From the NCBI GenBank assembly GCA_902772455.1, contig CACYAW010000015.1, forward strand, positions 1 through 33,002: 33,002 bases of DNA. Reading direction: 5' to 3'. Position 1 is the first letter of the stretch; every line of letters starts with the position of its first letter. The notes beneath the pieces were generated by a model. The model searched no databases. It was not told where the DNA came from and was given only the letters and a program-made list of their open reading frames with translations. Both the position numbers and the translations under genes were made by a program. Source of the DNA: an uncultured Bacteroidales bacterium. Its GTDB lineage: Bacteria; Bacteroidota; Bacteroidia; Bacteroidales; Muribaculaceae. This document shows positions 2,291 through 33,002 of the stretch, piece after piece.

Positions 2291-3733
2291 TTAGTCCTTG
2301 CAGCAGTTCTTGCGGCGGCCCTTAACCAGGCCCACCTTGGAGCGCACGCAGCGGAATCCGATGTAGCTCCTCTGCTCGTTCTGGTACTCCCACATGCGCA
2401 GGTCGGAACGCAGGTTGTGAACGACATCCTTCCATGAACCGCCTCGCACGATCTTGCGCGACATCTTGTAGGGATCCTCCTGAGCCACATAGTAGCGATA
2501 CTCGGGATTGATGTCATCGGTCATGCGGTCGATGCTCTCGGTATAGGCGGTAGAGGTCCACTCGCTCACGTTACCGGCCATGTCATACAGGCCGTAGTCG
2601 TTGGGCTCATAGGTGCCCACGGGTGACGAGATAATGTAACCGTCCTTGACGTAGTTGCCCTCGTCGGGCTTGAAGTTGGCATAGAAACAGCCCTCATCCA
2701 CCGTCAGGGGCAGGTCACCGTCCCAGGGGTACTTGTTCATGTTCTTGCCGGCACGGGCAGCAAACTCCCACTCGGCCTCGGTGGGGAGACGGAAGGGCTC
2801 TACATAGATGCCCTGGCTTCCCAACGACTTCTTGAGGAACTCGGTGCGCCAGTGGCAGAAGGCGTTGGCCTGCTCCCAGCTCACACCCACAACGGGATAG
2901 TTGTTATAGTTGCCGTTGGCGAAGTACATGCGCACATAGGGCTCCTGGTAAGCGTTCTCAAAATCATTGACCCAGCACGTCGTGTCAGGGTAGATGTTGA
3001 CGATATAGGTATTCAGGAAATCATAGTCGCTCTGCAAGGCACGCGTTACGGTCTGGCGTATGATTCGTCCATCGTCGTCAATATAGGCAGTATCCTTGCT
3101 GATGGTGGGCGCCGTCATGTCCACCTCATGGTCGGTGTTGTAGTCGCGACGGGTGGGATCAAAACGATGCCTGCGTTTAGCGGCCTCGGTAAGGTTATAG
3201 ACCTCATAGCGGTAGTTCATCTGCGATGCGTCCAGTTCCTTCACGCCAGTGATGGGGTTGATGCGATAGACGCTCTCGATGGCACGCTCCTCGTCCTCGC
3301 TGGGATTCTTCCAGGGGATACTCTTGCTCCAGTCGAGATGGGGAGTAACGGGGTTACCCTCCTTGTCCTCCTCGATCTTAAACTCCTCGTTGCCGCCATA
3401 GGCGGGATCGGCCAGGCGCTCACGGATGATCGAGTCGCGCACCCAATAGACAAACTGCTTGTACTTGGAATTGCTCACTTCCATCTCGTCCATCCAGAAG
3501 GCGTCCACCGAGATGCCGTGTGCCGTCGAGTCGATACCCCAGATGGAGTCACGCTCATTGGGACCCTCGCGCATCGAGCCAACGTCAACGAGCACCATGC
3601 CATAAGGGGTGGTCTCGTTAAATACCATAGCGCCGACGCCGGTGACTTCACCGCCGCTGGTGCCTCCCTTGCGCATCGATCCGCAGGACACAGTCGCCAC
3701 AGCGACCAACAGTATCAATAATAGTTTCTTCAT
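2291..3733 (-). CDS. porK: T9SS outer-membrane-ring lipoprotein PorK (GldK)
   Basis: 480 aa with a lipoprotein signal peptide (hydrophobic segment, then lipobox ATVSC; predicted lipidated Cys17). The mature part is a formylglycine-generating-enzyme/SUMF1-like fold. Visible motifs are FRLPTEAEWEFAARAG, GNVSEWTSTAY, IVRGGSWKD and YIGFRCVRS. In the T9SS this fold is structural: PorK pairs with PorN in a periplasmic ring attached to the outer membrane. The gene starts 4 nt after porP ends, so the two are probably cotranscribed and translationally coupled; porL follows 64 nt later. porN, usually next after porM, would lie beyond the left edge. Confidence 0.96.
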   Translation of the reverse strand: MKKLLLILLVAVATVSCGSMRKGGTSGGEVTGVGAMVFNETTPYGMVLVDVGSMREGPNERDSIWGIDSTAHGISVDAFWMDEMEVSNSKYKQFVYWVRDSIIRERLADPAYGGNEEFKIEEDKEGNPVTPHLDWSKSIPWKNPSEDEERAIESVYRINPITGVKELDASQMNYRYEVYNLTEAAKRRHRFDPTRRDYNTDHEVDMTAPTISKDTAYIDDDGRIIRQTVTRALQSDYDFLNTYIVNIYPDTTCWVNDFENAYQEPYVRMYFANGNYNNYPVVGVSWEQANAFCHWRTEFLKKSLGSQGIYVEPFRLPTEAEWEFAARAGKNMNKYPWDGDLPLTVDEGCFYANFKPDEGNYVKDGYIISSPVGTYEPNDYGLYDMAGNVSEWTSTAYTESIDRMTDDINPEYRYYVAQEDPYKMSRKIVRGGSWKDVVHNLRSDLRMWEYQNEQRSYIGFRCVRSKVGLVKGRRKNCCKD

Positions 3734-6660: not shown

Positions 6661-6688
6661 TTTTAGTTTTTAGTTGTTAGTCTTTAGT
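6661..6688. repeat. Short tandem repeat, four 7-nt units (nnTTAGT)
   Basis: Four consecutive 7-nt units between the two acyltransferase genes: TTTTAGT, TTTTAGT, TGTTAGT and CTTTAGT. It ends almost at the start codon of the downstream gene (ATG at 6659, minus strand), so it forms that gene's upstream region. A similar 7-nt array with a different sequence occurs at 23528-23555. Confidence 0.75.
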
Positions 6689-6736
6689 TGTCGGCTATCT
6701 GGTTTAAGCCTTTGTTTTTGAATGGGTTGATGACCC

Positions 6737-27417: not shown

Positions 27418-30099
27418 ATGAAAGTAAGATTCAACATCGAGTACAGCACCATCTATGGTGAGACTCTGGTACTCAATATCGTGAATAATGCCGAAGACGG
27501 AAATGTGTCGCGCAATGTGATGAAGCCCGCGACCGACAAGTCGTGGAAATGCGACTTGGACTTTCCCGCCAAAGTCGGACACATCAACTATTACTACAGC
27601 GTAGAGCGTGACGGCAAGGAGCTCCGCCACGAGTGGATGGTCATCCCTCACCGCATGGACCTGAATGCCGCCAAGGCCACGCGCTACATCACCTATGACC
27701 ACTGGAACGACATGCCCGACGACAGCTACCTGTACAGTTCGGCCTTCACCGACTGCGTGACCCTGCGCAAACTGCAAGACCCCGCCAAGTGCAAGTATGC
27801 CACTATCGTGCAGTTGAAGGTGCGTGCGCCGCAGCTGCGCACGGGCGAGACCCTTGCCGTCGTGGGCAACGAGCCCACCCTGGGCGACTGGGACGAGAAC
27901 AAGGCCCTCAAGATGACCGAGCACAACCACAACGAGTGGGTCATCTCACTTGACGGTACCGCTTTCAAGAAAGCGTTTGTTGAGTTCAAGTTCGTCATCT
28001 TGGGCAGCAAAGGCAAGAACGTCATTTGGGAAACCGGCGACAACCGCACCGTGCTGCTGCCCGTCCTCAAGGAAGGTGAGCACATCGTCTATGAGCTTCA
28101 GCAGGCCTACTTCCCCTTGTATCCCGTGAAACTGGCTGGCACCGTGGTTCCCATCTTCTCGCTTCGCAGCGAGGGCAGTTTTGGCGTGGGTGACTTTGGA
28201 GACCTCAAACTCATGGTGGACTGGGTGGCCAGCACAGGGCAGCGAGCCTTGCAGGTACTTCCCATTAACGACACCACCATCACGCACACCTGGAGCGACA
28301 GCTACCCTTACAACAGCATCAGCATTTATGCCCTGCATCCGCAGTACATGGATCTGCGCCAATTGCCCAAACTCGACAACAAGAAACGTGCCACCGAGTT
28401 TGAGAAGCTGCGCAAAGAACTGAATGCCCTGCCGCAAATCGACTACGAACGCGTGAACAACGCTAAGCGTGAATACATGAAGCTGTTGTTTGAGCAAGAG
28501 GGAGCCCAAGTGCTTAAGAGTGACGAATTCAAGGCATTCTTTACTGCCAATCAGGATTGGTTGGTACCCTATGCCGCCTTCTGTCACTACCGCGACCTGT
28601 ATGGCACAGCATCCTTCTCCAAGTGGCCTTCCAACCACATCTTCACCGACGAGGAACGCGCCGCACTGACCAATCCCCGCACCAAGGCCTTCAAAGAAGT
28701 GAGCCTGTGGTACTATGTGCAGTACTATCTGGATAAGCAGATGCGTGGCGCCCACAAATATGCCCAGAGCAAACATGTCATTCTCAAGGGCGACATTCCC
28801 ATCGGCATCAGCCGCGACAGTGTTGAGGCCTGGGTAGAGCCCAAATACTTCAACCTCAACGGTCAGGCAGGCGCTCCGCCCGATGCTTTCTCGACCAATG
28901 GCCAAAATTGGGGCTTCCCGACATATAACTGGGACGTGATGCTTGCCGACGGCTGCAAGTGGTGGGTTAAGCGTTTCCGCAAGATGTCACAATACTTTGA
29001 CGCTTACCGCATCGACCACGTGCTGGGCTTCTTCCGCATCTGGGAAATCCCCATCAATGCCGTTCACGGCCTGCTGGGCCAGTTCTCACCCTCGCTGGGC
29101 ATGAGCGCCGATGAAATCCGCAGCTATGGCCTCAATTTCCAGGAGAAGCTGATGACCGAGCCGTTTATCGCCGACTGGGTACTGGACCGCATCTTTGGCA
29201 AACTGGCCGACACGGTGCGCCAGAAATACGTTGAGCGCGTGCATGACGACATCTACCGCATGAAGCCGGAATATGACACTCAGCGCAAGATTGAAGCCGC
29301 ATTCCAGGGCAAGGATAGTGACGAAGACATCTGGCTGCGCGATGGTCTGTATGCCCTCATCAGCGATGTCCTGTTCGTGCGCGACCGCAAGAATCCCGCC
29401 CTTTATCATCCCCGCATCTCGGTGCAGTTCGACTTTGTTTACGAGGCGCTCTACGACAACGACAAAGCCGCCTTTAACAAGCTCTACAACGAATACTATT
29501 ACCGTCGCAACAACGACTTCTGGTATCACGAGGCGATGAAGAAACTGCCCAAGCTGGTACAGGCCACCCGCATGCTCGTCTGTGCCGAGGATCTGGGCAT
29601 GGTGCCCGACTGCGTGGCATGGGTGATGAACGAGTTGCGCATCCTGAGTCTTGAGATCCAGTCGATGCCTAAAGACAACCACATCAAGTTCGGCAACCTG
29701 AACAGCAACCCCTACCGTAGCGTGGCTACCATCTCAACCCACGACATGCCCACTATGCGGCAATGGTGGGACGAGGATTGGGACCGCACCCAGGAATTCT
29801 ACAACACCTCGTTGTGGCACAATGATGCAGCGCCCCATCCGTTGCCCGGCTGGTTAGCCGATGACATTGTCCGCAACCACCTGGCTTGTCCGTCCATGTT
29901 GTGTCTGCTCTCGTTGCAGGATTGGCTCGCCATTGATGAGAAGATGCGTCTGGCCGATGCCGATGCCGAGCGCATCAACATCCCCGCCAATCCCCGCCAC
30001 TACTGGCGTTACCGCATGCACATGACCATCGAACAGCTGATGAAGGCCGATGAGTTCAATGGCCACGTGAAAGAAATCATCACTCAAAACGGACGCTAA
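27418..30099 (+). CDS. malQ: 4-alpha-glucanotransferase, DPE2-like (GH77 with two N-terminal starch-binding-type domains)
   Basis: 893 aa, much longer than classical MalQ (about 500-690). N-terminal tandem CBM20-like domains: residues about 1-110 (degenerate) and 120-235 (clear motif VVGNEPTLGDWDENKALKM). The GH77 core starts near 240 (PIFSLRSEGSFGVGDFGDLK) with LPINDT. Catalytic residues: nucleophile Asp533 (YRIDHVLGFFRIWE), acid/base Glu724 (VCAEDLGMVPD), stabiliser Asp776 (STHDMPTMRQWW). The 190-residue gap between nucleophile and acid/base means an insert of about 140 residues, the hallmark of plant DPE2-type enzymes. No signal peptide, so cytoplasmic: it transfers glucosyl units from maltose or maltodextrin to longer glucans, releasing glucose. 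Its stop overlaps the next ATG by one base (TAATG). Confidence 0.96.
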   Translation: MKVRFNIEYSTIYGETLVLNIVNNAEDGNVSRNVMKPATDKSWKCDLDFPAKVGHINYYYSVERDGKELRHEWMVIPHRMDLNAAKATRYITYDHWNDMPDDSYLYSSAFTDCVTLRKLQDPAKCKYATIVQLKVRAPQLRTGETLAVVGNEPTLGDWDENKALKMTEHNHNEWVISLDGTAFKKAFVEFKFVILGSKGKNVIWETGDNRTVLLPVLKEGEHIVYELQQAYFPLYPVKLAGTVVPIFSLRSEGSFGVGDFGDLKLMVDWVASTGQRALQVLPINDTTITHTWSDSYPYNSISIYALHPQYMDLRQLPKLDNKKRATEFEKLRKELNALPQIDYERVNNAKREYMKLLFEQEGAQVLKSDEFKAFFTANQDWLVPYAAFCHYRDLYGTASFSKWPSNHIFTDEERAALTNPRTKAFKEVSLWYYVQYYLDKQMRGAHKYAQSKHVILKGDIPIGISRDSVEAWVEPKYFNLNGQAGAPPDAFSTNGQNWGFPTYNWDVMLADGCKWWVKRFRKMSQYFDAYRIDHVLGFFRIWEIPINAVHGLLGQFSPSLGMSADEIRSYGLNFQEKLMTEPFIADWVLDRIFGKLADTVRQKYVERVHDDIYRMKPEYDTQRKIEAAFQGKDSDEDIWLRDGLYALISDVLFVRDRKNPALYHPRISVQFDFVYEALYDNDKAAFNKLYNEYYYRRNNDFWYHEAMKKLPKLVQATRMLVCAEDLGMVPDCVAWVMNELRILSLEIQSMPKDNHIKFGNLNSNPYRSVATISTHDMPTMRQWWDEDWDRTQEFYNTSLWHNDAAPHPLPGWLADDIVRNHLACPSMLCLLSLQDWLAIDEKMRLADADAERINIPANPRHYWRYRMHMTIEQLMKADEFNGHVKEIITQNGR

Positions 30100-32021
30100 T
30101 GAGACAACTTTTATCACTGGTAGCGATAATCATGGCATTACTCGTACCACAATCATTAACCGCTCGCACCGGGGTCACCTACTCCCCCGGCGCGAGTGTT
30201 TTCACTATCGAGACCAATAACGATGCCCAGCAAGTAAAACTGCGCATCTATAAGGATGGCTTGGGCGGCAAGCCCGTCAAGACCGTGAATATGAAGCGCG
30301 ACAAGGCGGGCAACACCCTGTGGCAGGCTTCGGTCAAGGGTGACCTGAAGGGCAAATTCTACACCTTCGACGTGAAATATGACGGTAAGTTCCGTGGGGA
30401 GTGCCCAGGCATTTGGGCTACCGCCGTTGGCGTGAACGGCAAGCGAGGAGCCATCGTTGACATGGGTCAGACCGACCCGCAGGGCTGGAGTGCCGACAAG
30501 CGTCCCGCTATTGCAGCCAAGGACCTCATCCTGTATGAGATGCACCACCGTGACTTCTCCATCGATGAATCCGGCGGCTTTACCTACAAGGGAAAATTCC
30601 TGGCCTTGACCGAGCCTCGTGCCATCGAGCACCTGAAGACGTTGGGCGTGAACGCCGTGCACATCTTGCCCTCATTCGACTATGCCTCGGTCGATGAGAC
30701 CCGCTTGAACGAGCCGCAGTACAACTGGGGCTATGACCCCGTAAACTACAATGTGCCCGAGGGCGGCTATTCTACCGATCCCTACAAGCCCGAAGTGCGC
30801 ATCAGCGAGTTCAAGCAGATGGTGCAGGCCCTGCACAAGGCAGGCATCAAGGTCATCCTGGACGTGGTGTATAACCACACCTGGAACATCGACGGCAGCA
30901 ACTTCCAGCTCACCCGTCCCGACTACTTCTACCGCAAGAATGCCGACGGCACCTACAGCAACGGCAGCGGCTGCGGCAACGAGACGGCCAGTGAGCGCGA
31001 CGGAATGCGCCAATTCATGATCGAAAGCGTGAAATATTGGGTGGACGAATACCACATCGACGGTTTCCGCTTCGACTTGATGGGCGTGCACGATATCGAG
31101 ACGATGAACGCCATCCGCAATGCCGTGCCCCAAGATATCTTCATCTATGGCGAGGGTTGGAGCGCTGGCAGTTGCGCTTATTCCGGAGACCTGGCCATGA
31201 AGGCTAACACCAGCAAGATGCCAGGCATCGCCGCCTTCAGCGATGAGATACGCGATGCACTGCGCGGCCCGTGGGACAGCAACAGCAAGGCTGCCTTCCT
31301 GGGCGGTGTGAAAGGCAATGAGGAAAGCATCAAGTTTGGCATCGTGGGAGCTATCCAGCATCCCGGTGTTGACTACAGCAAGGTAAATTACAGCAAAGCA
31401 CCTTATGCCAACGAACCGACCCAGATGATTGCTTATGTGAGCTGCCACGACGACATGTGTCTGGTAGACCGCCTCAAAGCCAGCGTCAAGGGTATCACGA
31501 TTGATGAACTCATCCGCCTAGACCTGATGGCACAGACCGTGGTCATGACCTCACAGGGTGTGCCGTTCCTGCTCAGCGGTGAAGAGATGTTGCGTGACAA
31601 GAAAGGCGTGCACAACAGCTACGAGAGTCCTGACAGCATCAACCATCTGGACTGGGACAACCTGGAACGCTATCCTCAGGTGATGGACTACTACAAGAGT
31701 CTGATTGCCCTGCGCAAGGCACATCCCGCCTTCCACATGGGCAGTGCCGACTTGGTGCGCCGCAACCTCGACTTCCTGCCCACCGAGAACTGCCTCGTGG
31801 CCTATCACATCAACGGCCGTAACGTGCCTGGTGAGACCTGGGACGACATCTACGTGGCCTTCAACGCCCACAAGCGCGCCCGCACCATCGAGGTCCCCGA
31901 CGGCACTTACACCATCGTCTGCCGCAACATCAAGTGCGACCAATCCGGCATCTCCACCGTCAAGACAAAGGGTGGCAAAGTGACAGTACCAGCACAATCA
32001 GCCCTGATTATCCACAATTAA
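30099..32021 (+). CDS. pulA: Exported type I pullulanase (GH13) with N-terminal CBM48-like domain
   Basis: 640 aa. Sec-type signal peptide (about residues 1-22, no lipobox Cys), then a beta-rich CBM48/E-set domain and the GH13 barrel. The type I pullulanase signature YNWGYDPVNYNVPEGGYS starts at residue 208. Conserved regions: DVVYNHTW; GFRFDLMG with nucleophile Asp326; IYGEGWSAG with acid/base Glu352; SCHDD with stabiliser Asp451. Cleaves alpha-1,6 branches in pullulan/amylopectin-derived dextrins. The signal peptide puts it in the periplasm, before uptake by the MFS porter, while MalQ acts in the cytoplasm. Third gene of the operon, translationally coupled to malQ. Its stop codon shares its last A with the start of a 9-nt repeat array. 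Confidence 0.93.
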   Translation: MRQLLSLVAIIMALLVPQSLTARTGVTYSPGASVFTIETNNDAQQVKLRIYKDGLGGKPVKTVNMKRDKAGNTLWQASVKGDLKGKFYTFDVKYDGKFRGECPGIWATAVGVNGKRGAIVDMGQTDPQGWSADKRPAIAAKDLILYEMHHRDFSIDESGGFTYKGKFLALTEPRAIEHLKTLGVNAVHILPSFDYASVDETRLNEPQYNWGYDPVNYNVPEGGYSTDPYKPEVRISEFKQMVQALHKAGIKVILDVVYNHTWNIDGSNFQLTRPDYFYRKNADGTYSNGSGCGNETASERDGMRQFMIESVKYWVDEYHIDGFRFDLMGVHDIETMNAIRNAVPQDIFIYGEGWSAGSCAYSGDLAMKANTSKMPGIAAFSDEIRDALRGPWDSNSKAAFLGGVKGNEESIKFGIVGAIQHPGVDYSKVNYSKAPYANEPTQMIAYVSCHDDMCLVDRLKASVKGITIDELIRLDLMAQTVVMTSQGVPFLLSGEEMLRDKKGVHNSYESPDSINHLDWDNLERYPQVMDYYKSLIALRKAHPAFHMGSADLVRRNLDFLPTENCLVAYHINGRNVPGETWDDIYVAFNAHKRARTIEVPDGTYTIVCRNIKCDQSGISTVKTKGGKVTVPAQSALIIHN

Positions 32022-32065
32022 CGGATTAGACGGAATTAACGGAGATTACGGAGTTAACGGAATAG
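32021..32065 (+). repeat. Upstream 9-nt repeat array, five units (ACGGAnnTA)
   Basis: Five units in exact 9-nt phase: ACGGATTAG, ACGGAATTA, ACGGAGATT, ACGGAGTTA, ACGGAATAG. The first A is the last base of the pullulanase stop codon, and the array ends 6 nt before the ATG of the four-helix-bundle gene, so it makes up essentially the whole intergenic region. Confidence 0.93.
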
Positions 32066-32071
32066 AGTTTT

Positions 32072-32761
32072 ATGGAGGATAAAAAGAGACCTCGCATTAA
32101 CCATTACGAAGATGGGACTGCTAGCTCGTTGCGCCGGAGGACAATATATACTGAGTTGCGATTTTATCAGCGTAGTGATGTGCTGTATCAATTGACTCAG
32201 GTGTTTTGCCAACGTTTCCTGAAGCATTATGGCGACCGCACAGTTGACCAGATGGTTCAAGCCGCCCGCAGCTGCAAGCAGAATATCGTTGAGGGTAGCA
32301 GTGATGGTGAAACTTCGGTAGAGAGTGAATTGAAACTATTGGGATTTGCCCGTGGCAGCAACAAGGAACTGCTCGAGGACTACCAGGATTACATCAAACG
32401 CAAAGGATACTCCGAATGGTATGGCACTCACCCCCGATACAAAGCCATGCTCGATTTTTGCCGCAAACACAGCAAATTTGAGGATTACAAGAAGTTGCTG
32501 CCCAAGATGAACGATGAAGAAATGGCGAACATGGCCATCTGCCTGTGCCATCAAGTAGATGCCGCATTGAACAAATACATCGAAAGGAAAGACCGTGAAT
32601 TCACTACCGAGGGCGGTGTGCGTGAACGCATGACCGCCGCACGGCTTGAACAACGTGCGACACAAAAGGAAATCATCGAGCAGCAAGCACAGGAGATTGC
32701 TGCACTCAAGCAAGAAATCGCCCGGCTAAAAGCCCTGCTCGATGAGAAAGGACAGACTTGA
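32072..32761 (+). CDS. Four-helix-bundle protein (S23/IVP-like) with C-terminal coiled coil
   Basis: 229 aa, no signal peptide, basic. The core (about residues 25-180) looks like the four-helix-bundle family first found in 23S rRNA intervening sequences (TIGR02436-like). The typical helix motif is QMVQAARSCKQNIVEGSS (about 60-77), followed by an acidic ELKLLGFARGSNKELLEDY region. Residues from about 190 form a heptad-rich coiled coil (IIEQQAQEIAALKQEIARLK), matching the 'four helix bundle suffix' type of Bacteroidetes protein. The function of these proteins is not established; the related Avd protein of diversity-generating retroelements binds nucleic acid. The gene is flanked on both sides by 9-nt repeats of one sequence family, and its stop codon shares its last A with the downstream array. 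Confidence 0.88.
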   Translation: MEDKKRPRINHYEDGTASSLRRRTIYTELRFYQRSDVLYQLTQVFCQRFLKHYGDRTVDQMVQAARSCKQNIVEGSSDGETSVESELKLLGFARGSNKELLEDYQDYIKRKGYSEWYGTHPRYKAMLDFCRKHSKFEDYKKLLPKMNDEEMANMAICLCHQVDAALNKYIERKDREFTTEGGVRERMTAARLEQRATQKEIIEQQAQEIAALKQEIARLKALLDEKGQT

Positions 32762-32904
32762 CGGATGAAACGGAGTTAACGGATGTAACGGAATTAACGG
32801 AGATAACGGAATTAAAAATGAAAACGGAGGAAGCGGGCGTTCCCGTTGCCTCCGTTTTATCCATTATATCCGTTTTATCCGTTAAGTCCGTTAATTCCGT
32901 TAAT
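32761..32904 (+). repeat. Downstream 9-nt repeat array with reversal of orientation, 16 units
   Basis: 144 nt in unbroken 9-nt phase. Six direct units come first (ACGGATGAA, ACGGAGTTA, ACGGATGTA, ACGGAATTA, ACGGAGATA, ACGGAATTA). Then a diverged unit (AAAATGAAA), ACGGAGGAA and two centre units (GCGGGCGTT, CCCGTTGCC). Then six inverted units (TCCGTTTTA, TCCATTATA, TCCGTTTTA, TCCGTTAAG, TCCGTTAAT, TCCGTTAAT). The same consensus as the array upstream of the gene. The direct and inverted halves are in register, so 32779-32900 can fold into one long hairpin (ACGGA against TCCGT at nearly every unit). Confidence 0.93.
32821..32858 (+). terminator. Core hairpin of the downstream array (terminator-like)
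   Basis: Perfect 10-bp outer stem AAAACGGAGG / CCTCCGTTTT, then three positions with an A-G mismatch, an A-U and a G-U pair, an inner CGGG/CCCG stem and a CGTT loop. It is followed by TTTTA. It may end transcription of the maltodextrin operon and the four-helix-bundle gene in either direction, in addition to any role in the repeat unit. Confidence 0.6.
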
Positions 32905-32910
32905 TGTCTT

Positions 32911-32952
32911 GTCCTGAAATAGGTTGACAAAAATGTCAACATAATTTAGGAC
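32911..32952. repeat. 42-nt dyad upstream of the last reading frame
   Basis: Left arm GTCCTGAAATAGGTTGACA, 4-nt spacer AAAA, right arm complementary at 16 of 19 positions; the inner 7 bp (GTTGACA/TGTCAAC) are perfect. It ends 4 nt before the ATG at 32957. The left flank resembles the TGT...GTTGACA-type ends of some IS3-like elements, so it may be an insertion-sequence end or an operator. Confidence 0.75.
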
Positions 32953-32956
32953 TAAA

Positions 32957-33002
32957 ATGAAGTACGATGAACGAAGGACAGATCACGAGAAATTACTAAT
33001 TT
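32957..33002 (+). CDS. Start of an unidentified reading frame, cut by the window edge
   Basis: Fifteen codons are visible (MKYDERRTDHEKLLI). The sequence is polar and charged, with no signal peptide. It lies right after the 42-nt dyad. A transposase or small DNA-binding protein of an insertion sequence is possible given the dyad, but 15 residues are too few for assignment. Confidence 0.35.
   Translation, partial: MKYDERRTDHEKLLI

Follow-up and report, generated by a model that had tools for sequence, protein, structure and literature searches.

A REPIN consists of two short repeats in inverted orientation around a short interior. It is present in many copies in gaps and is linked to one gene, which the same repeat brackets. 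RAYTs are Y1 (HUH) transposases.

In the accessible part of one paper, tandem heptamers precede the S23p ORF in a single rRNA element, and the element is called selfish (PMC4990558). Arrays of heptanucleotide repeats from Xanthomonas and Nostoc (GGGAATC, GGGGAYT) and of TAACTGA repeats are mostly intergenic, with 70 and 75 convergent-pair cases for the Xanthomonas arrays, as given in the available portions of two further reports (PMC4692102, PMC4679880). No S23/IVP-like protein is tied to the heptamer arrays in those portions: the terms S23, IVP, intervening and four-helix are absent from the available text of PMC4679880, and four helix and intervening from that of PMC4692102. Beyond the heptamers of PMC4990558, no link of the protein family with such arrays was found in the accessible literature, a weak negative since subscription journals and preprints were outside the search. 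A general link between S23-like proteins and flanking arrays thus appears to be unreported in that literature.

The gene described below and its arrays are probably one small selfish element of a large, REPIN/RAYT-like class, whose protein is not a transposase. Members of this class would consist of an S23/IVP-like four-helix-bundle gene bracketed by its own short-period arrays and located in an intergenic gap, the downstream array usually beginning no more than about 20 bases from where the gene stops.

The locus in the window

The window, i.e. the whole stretch of 33,002 nucleotides that was analysed, carries this gene behind a pulA-like gene, with arrays of 9-nt units on both sides (Table 1). 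The preliminary description had placed five units in strict 9-nt phase before the gene, and exact ACGGA cores were found in all five. It had also counted 16 units behind the gene. Sixteen nine-base slots in one phase are indeed present, but only 12 of them hold exact cores and those at 32815 and 32860 are degenerate. The inverted TCCGT cores share the 9-nt phase of the downstream ACGGA cores, and the upstream and downstream arrays differ in phase (8 and 1, respectively, modulo 9). A single consensus had been reported for all arrays. ACGGA cores do recur in those of the window, but in the class units differ between genes and periods between protein clades. Similarly, each array had been described as starting at the final A of a stop codon. 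This is correct for the window but is not conserved at the pulA stop, as the first core of the ortholog L306 lies about 11 nt behind it. The idea that insertion always occurs at a stop codon was dropped accordingly.

The pattern ACGGANNTA matched 10 times in the window, always within the repeat region, against 2.0 expected matches and a maximum of 6 in 100 shuffles, so the arrays cannot be attributed to chance. They were independently detected by Tandem Repeats Finder. A short 14-nt tandem repeat is located elsewhere in the window, at 6663-6691. The contig ends at 33002, about 100 nt past the inverted array.

Table 1. Features of the array-bracketed gene and its neighbour, in window positions
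Feature	Position	Strand	Remarks
pulA-like alpha-1,6-glucosidase gene	30099..32021	+	element sits behind it; stop codon TAA at 32019-32021; neighbour unchanged in six sister species
Upstream array	32021..32065	+	five ACGGAnnnn units in a single 9-nt phase; exact ACGGA cores at 32021, 32030, 32039, 32048, 32057; first base coincides with the final A of the pulA TAA
Four-helix-bundle gene with TIGR04258 suffix, 229 aa	32072..32761	+	fold predicted to be S23-like, with a long further helix at the C-terminus; stop codon TGA at 32759-32761
Downstream direct array	32761..32832	+	exact ACGGA cores: six in 32761-32806 (32761, 32770, 32779, 32788, 32797, 32806) and one at 32824; degenerate unit at 32815
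Downstream hairpin tip	32824..32855	+	terminator-like
Inverted array	32851..32904	-	TCCGT cores at 32851, 32869, 32878, 32887, 32896; degenerate unit at 32860

The gene is a TIGR02436/TIGR04258 four-helix-bundle (S23/IVP-like) gene. Its product matched TIGR04258 at 64.7 bits (curated cut-off 40; 5e-18) and TIGR02436 at 28.7 bits (curated cut-off 24; 1e-6), and matched the Pfam family 23S_rRNA_IVP under the Pfam cut-off. With the cores mapped, the repeats above the shuffled level and the profile matches over their cut-offs, both the arrays and the gene are real. The AlphaFold2 model is helical and confident (pLDDT 92). Among solved structures, Foldseek placed 2gsc first, with a TM by target of 0.83 at E 0.009, together with 2rld, with a TM of up to 0.81 at E 0.1 or worse, and no match reached E<=0.001; judged from the model, the predicted fold is that of the S23/IVP four-helix bundle. 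A sequence search with the window protein found neither structure, and one with a relative from the base family (TIGR02436) in the same genome (L156) found 2gsc (1.7e-25) and 2rld.

Profile searches gave the window protein no match to a transposase or nuclease family model. Neither a transposase (at E<=1e-5) nor a reverse transcriptase was found among the 20 of 22 other window ORFs that were scanned, a search cut short on the right-hand side by the contig end. Rfam gave no match at E<=1 for positions 31800-33002, and the locus lies between pulA and the contig end, not inside a 23S rRNA gene. Two further identities were rejected. A phage gene was discarded since the L156 protein had no tblastn match in 50,697 phage records and the window protein had no convincing PHROG match; the latter gave no match to Avd among the PHROGs, and L156 matched PHROG 3206, the Avd of diversity-generating retroelements (DGR), at E 2e-11. 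For a known defence gene, PADLOC returned a weak match only (0.0036).

The element is found at the same pulA, with ACGGA arrays, in six sister species, and the window copy therefore looks old and stable. In four more distant relatives (pulA 59-69% identical) pulA lacks the element. One sister species (L307, genome G447) has the upstream array alone inverted and another (L308, genome G434) has the whole unit reversed relative to pulA, which looks as if arrays or units flip. The genome of the window possesses four TIGR04258 genes, all with 9-nt arrays nearby, and their units are unlike: ACGGAnnTA in the window, CTGGA-type on C45 and C7, and TATAAG-type on C32. A solitary ACGGA array was found at C29 in this genome. 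By eye, the C32 gene (L007) seems to be placed among type I restriction specificity-like genes.

Arrays across the protein family

The suffix family (TIGR04258) was sampled in 119 genomes of the host family, Muribaculaceae. Matches were found in 67 of them (120 in total), and flanks were read for 113 after seven matches had been left out (contig ends, fragments and one with a stop). An array score of at least 16 was reached by 85 of the 113 genes, against 12 of 134 control ORFs from the same loci; the other 28 genes scored below 16. The period was 8, 9 or 10, or double, in 84 of the 85 arrays, and some of the 12 control arrays were of the same kind. Outside the host family, 41 of 296 genomes of the phylum had a match, and the signal was weaker in the 29 loci analysed there (18/29 at score 12 and 10/29 at score 15).

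The array rule extends beyond the window gene to the S23-like family in many phyla. For the base family, 28 loci were obtained from 41 genomes searched in the phylum, and 20 scored at least 15, with a period of 7, 8 or 14. A cross-phylum set comprised 80 loci, the best of 590 confirmed ones when these are ordered by similarity to a single protein from the window's own genome, and covered many phyla and one archaeon. Here 64 of the 80 scored at least 15, compared with 38 of 224 control ORFs. Period 7 occurred in 27 of these 38 control arrays (best 80 of 590 loci), and we take the control arrays at the cross-phylum loci for solitary copies. A score of at least 15 was also reached by 19 of 30 loci in Lysobacteraceae. 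At small loci the control ORFs with an array were 0/1 and 0/5, too few to be of use. The expectation that arrays flank such genes above chance was thus borne out in both families, by 85/113 versus 12/134 and, for the best 80 of 590 loci, by 64/80 versus 38/224. A coding function of the arrays, to which the 9-nt unit would be suited, was ruled out as a general rule by relatives with periods of 7, 8 and 10.

The layout of the arrays around the gene was scored in both families. Among 138 base-family loci, including the best 80 of 590, 64 were inverted, 8 direct and 2 ambiguous, 6 had palindromic units and in 58 the two sides could not both be measured. One locus is present in two sets (L246 and L355), but in neither set does it have arrays on both sides and the counts of 64 and 8 hold. 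Among 142 suffix-family loci, 12 were inverted, 10 direct, 6 ambiguous and 22 palindromic, and 92 did not have arrays on both sides; inverted and direct layouts are about equally common in this family. In two loci (L386, L395) the gene may lie inside an acc operon, judged from the upstream reading frames, which we take to resemble biotin carboxyl carrier protein (motif EAMKM).

The arrays follow the protein in both period and unit. A FastTree phylogeny was made from the 146 proteins whose arrays showed a clear period and whose length was 95 aa or more, in which 15 of the 84 cross-phylum and plasmid loci were hand-picked and long branches were flagged. Period changed 12 times on this tree, compared with 51.5 times after shuffling. 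Base-family rows had period 7, in some cases 8 and in two cases 9, and suffix clades had 9, 10 or 8. For the 88 genes with period 9, unit similarity rose from 0.38 at 30-40% protein identity to 0.74 above 70%. Between genomes, unit and protein similarity were correlated (Mantel r 0.44), and none of 1000 permutations was as high. Among 41 genes with a paralogue in their own genome, the unit was closer to that of the nearest foreign relative in 38 cases and further in 3. Pairs above 70% identity had a unit similarity of 0.743 without shared flanking ORFs (74 pairs) and 0.747 with them (31 pairs), in flanks of 4 kb at most and often about 1 kb or less, so that some synteny was surely missed. As units are equally alike with or without shared flanking ORFs, the unit travels with the gene and not with the site. 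From this covariation, each protein would appear to recognise its own unit, presumably by the core and by the spacing between units.

Solitary arrays and filled, empty and gene-less sites

Solitary arrays had been expected in genomes that carry the gene, and within the genus of the window this was so: of the 8 genomes with a window-like gene, 5 had ACGGA arrays away from it, compared with 3 of the 53 that lack such a gene (p 0.0005, in counts uncorrected for kinship). Two-unit matches to ACGGANNTA were detected in 9 of 61 genus genomes and those of a reversed control pattern in 3. Genome G446 has ACGGA arrays, but none beside its window-like gene (L312), and G430 and G451 have a window-like gene and no two-unit match. 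By eye, several of 15 inspected solitary ACGGA arrays followed shortly after a stop codon and preceded a hairpin resembling a terminator.

In 119 Lysobacteraceae genomes, two-unit patterns gave up to 413 hits per genome for GGGAATN and up to 757 for GGGATTN, where a hit is a pattern place and one long array yields many. The reversed-pattern controls gave at most 2 and up to 23, respectively. At least 10 hits were found in 37 of 54 genomes with a TIGR02436 gene, against 10 of 65 without, in counts uncorrected for kinship. Six genomes (G516, G525, G573, G581, G590 and G591) had at least 25 GGGAATN hits with no TIGR02436 gene detected, possibly through loss of the gene with copies remaining. Opposite-strand array pairs within 400 nt were counted in this family from the matches listed, which cover the first places in each of a few genomes, minus contigs whose rows could form no pair. 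Among these listed matches one orientation, the same as round the gene, prevailed by 25 to 0, and the gene-less pairs had a median gap of 95 nt, too short to hold the gene. The match between the unit at the gene and the arrays genome-wide was weak in Lysobacteraceae (n=10, rho 0.59, p 0.07). Nearby solitary arrays best matched the unit of their own gene in 12 of 51 cases (9 of 27 loci), where 0.8 were expected.

Precise presence or absence between strains had also been anticipated. Whole units were found to be present or absent at three orthologous sites, in base-family relatives on cyanobacterial plasmids, but not for the window copy. The gap that follows a TraM-like gene on Nostoc plasmids holds the element in L265 and L301 and is empty in L300 and L304. 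At this site, the best resolved of the three, the filled copies lack about 42 nt found in the empty site, and the event was therefore not a clean insertion. By eye, the plasmid L302 has a nearly identical left junction in this gap, leading to a gene-less inverted pair of GGGAAC arrays. In the TraM-like gap of another Nostoc plasmid (L303, near 2740-3081) we saw, again by eye, a different heptamer element with a TTCAAAA unit and no annotated gene; two element types thus occur at one site. Picosynechococcus PCC 7003 carries the element between cas10 and cmr3 and PCC 7002 does not (89% identity), and at nrdB/nrdA it is present in Nostoc edaphicum and not in Calothrix NIES-4105 (85%). In Geminocystis an element 71% identical over 95% of the query lies between an ATPase gene and parB. 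Two elements on Calothrix brevissima plasmids were discarded as evidence of movement, since they share neighbours and look like one larger duplicated stretch.

Interpretation and comparison with known systems

The preliminary description proposed that gene and repeat form a unit which spreads or regulates. The comparative tests, through association and through filled and empty sites, support it as a mobile class. Movement of the window copy itself is suggested by the class rather than by this copy. The arrays would be the ends of the element, and the gene-less inverted pairs would be copies that rely on protein made elsewhere in the genome. The protein presumably helps copies to spread. Since it matches no transposase or nuclease model, the strand chemistry would have to come from a partner. 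As a guess, the oligomeric protein may gather the hairpin of the arrays in the form of RNA or single-stranded DNA, which would then be copied into a new gap by a polymerase or reverse transcriptase acting in trans. We regard this copying step as the most likely route, though a doubtful one.

Three other explanations were considered. Autoregulation without mobility, in which the arrays beside the gene would serve the protein as operators or as binding sites on the mRNA while the solitary arrays would make up its regulon, is unlikely. It would fit the closeness of the arrays to the gene, as those of the base family, where found, lie at a median of 30 nt before the start (93/142 loci) and 9 nt after the stop (67/142). 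Solitary arrays are also fewer where the gene is absent, and a translational role has been proposed for TAACTGA arrays in the accessible part of PMC4679880. However, it does not account for a site that is filled, empty or occupied by a gene-less pair in different plasmids, for the similar units of close relatives whose sites share no flanking ORFs, for the single orientation of 25 of 25 solitary pairs among the matches listed, or for insertion within unrelated operons.

Quite unlikely is a relative of the rRNA intervening sequences in which RNase III would cleave a stem built from the arrays in the RNA and so trim the mRNA around the gene, with spread being rare and incidental. The downstream stretch of the window, as RNA, folds strongly (-73.3 kcal/mol, z -9.95), the inverted layout places the gene in a loop, and an intervening sequence bearing S23p is excised by RNase III and has tandem heptamers before its start codon, according to the accessible part of PMC4990558. 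Yet variable positions of the two arms are mostly uncoordinated, with z>2 in 8 of 43 loci. Exact pairing is thus not kept in most loci, for which reason an exact RNA stem was rejected as the selected feature, and the window locus has no Rfam match. Plain microsatellites, i.e. slippage arrays gathered in tolerant gaps with hairpins kept as terminators, are very unlikely: some arrays are near-perfect repeats and the window hairpin is terminator-like, but other genes of the same loci have arrays much less often, period and unit follow the protein tree, and slippage would not fix orientation.

Returning to the selfish element, we lean slightly towards a wider reading. S23-like proteins would be the dedicated recognition proteins of bacterium-wide selfish repeats without a transposase of their own, each lineage having its own word of 7-10 nt and its own spacing. 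The heptanucleotide repeats of Xanthomonadaceae, cyanobacteria and Bacteroidota would then be non-autonomous copies, and the rRNA intervening sequences a side branch. If this is true, a widespread small protein family of unknown role gains a function and a partner, and heptamer arrays published without a cause gain an origin. Protein lineages that change both word and spacing would then offer a natural code of recognition to decipher, and elements that move with no transposase of their own would imply a mechanism still to be found.

Like REP/REPIN-RAYT systems, the present elements comprise short repeats paired in inverted orientation around a short interior, have many copies in gaps and are linked to a gene that their repeat brackets. 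Inverted pairs of fixed orientation with a short interior, as in REP/RAYT, were found in Lysobacteraceae (25/25 among the matches listed), a count that does not cover the window's own unit. Unlike RAYTs, the window protein has no transposase match, and the repeats are built of tandem units of 7-10 nt, with a period that follows the protein clade. As no transposase was found, the elements are REPIN/RAYT-like in layout and not members of that group. With the rRNA intervening sequences that carry S23p ORFs they share the protein family and the position of the gene in an inverted-repeat loop. They differ in that the window locus has no Rfam match, plasmid copies lie between protein genes, many have arrays on both sides and there are gene-less copies. 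The likeness to the Avd of DGR lies in the same-genome relative L156, which matches the Avd PHROG 3206; unlike in a DGR, the window protein has no Avd match, and no reverse transcriptase was found in 20 of the 22 other window ORFs. The arrays of the present elements are of the same kind as the heptanucleotide repeats of Xanthomonas and Nostoc and the TAACTGA repeats.
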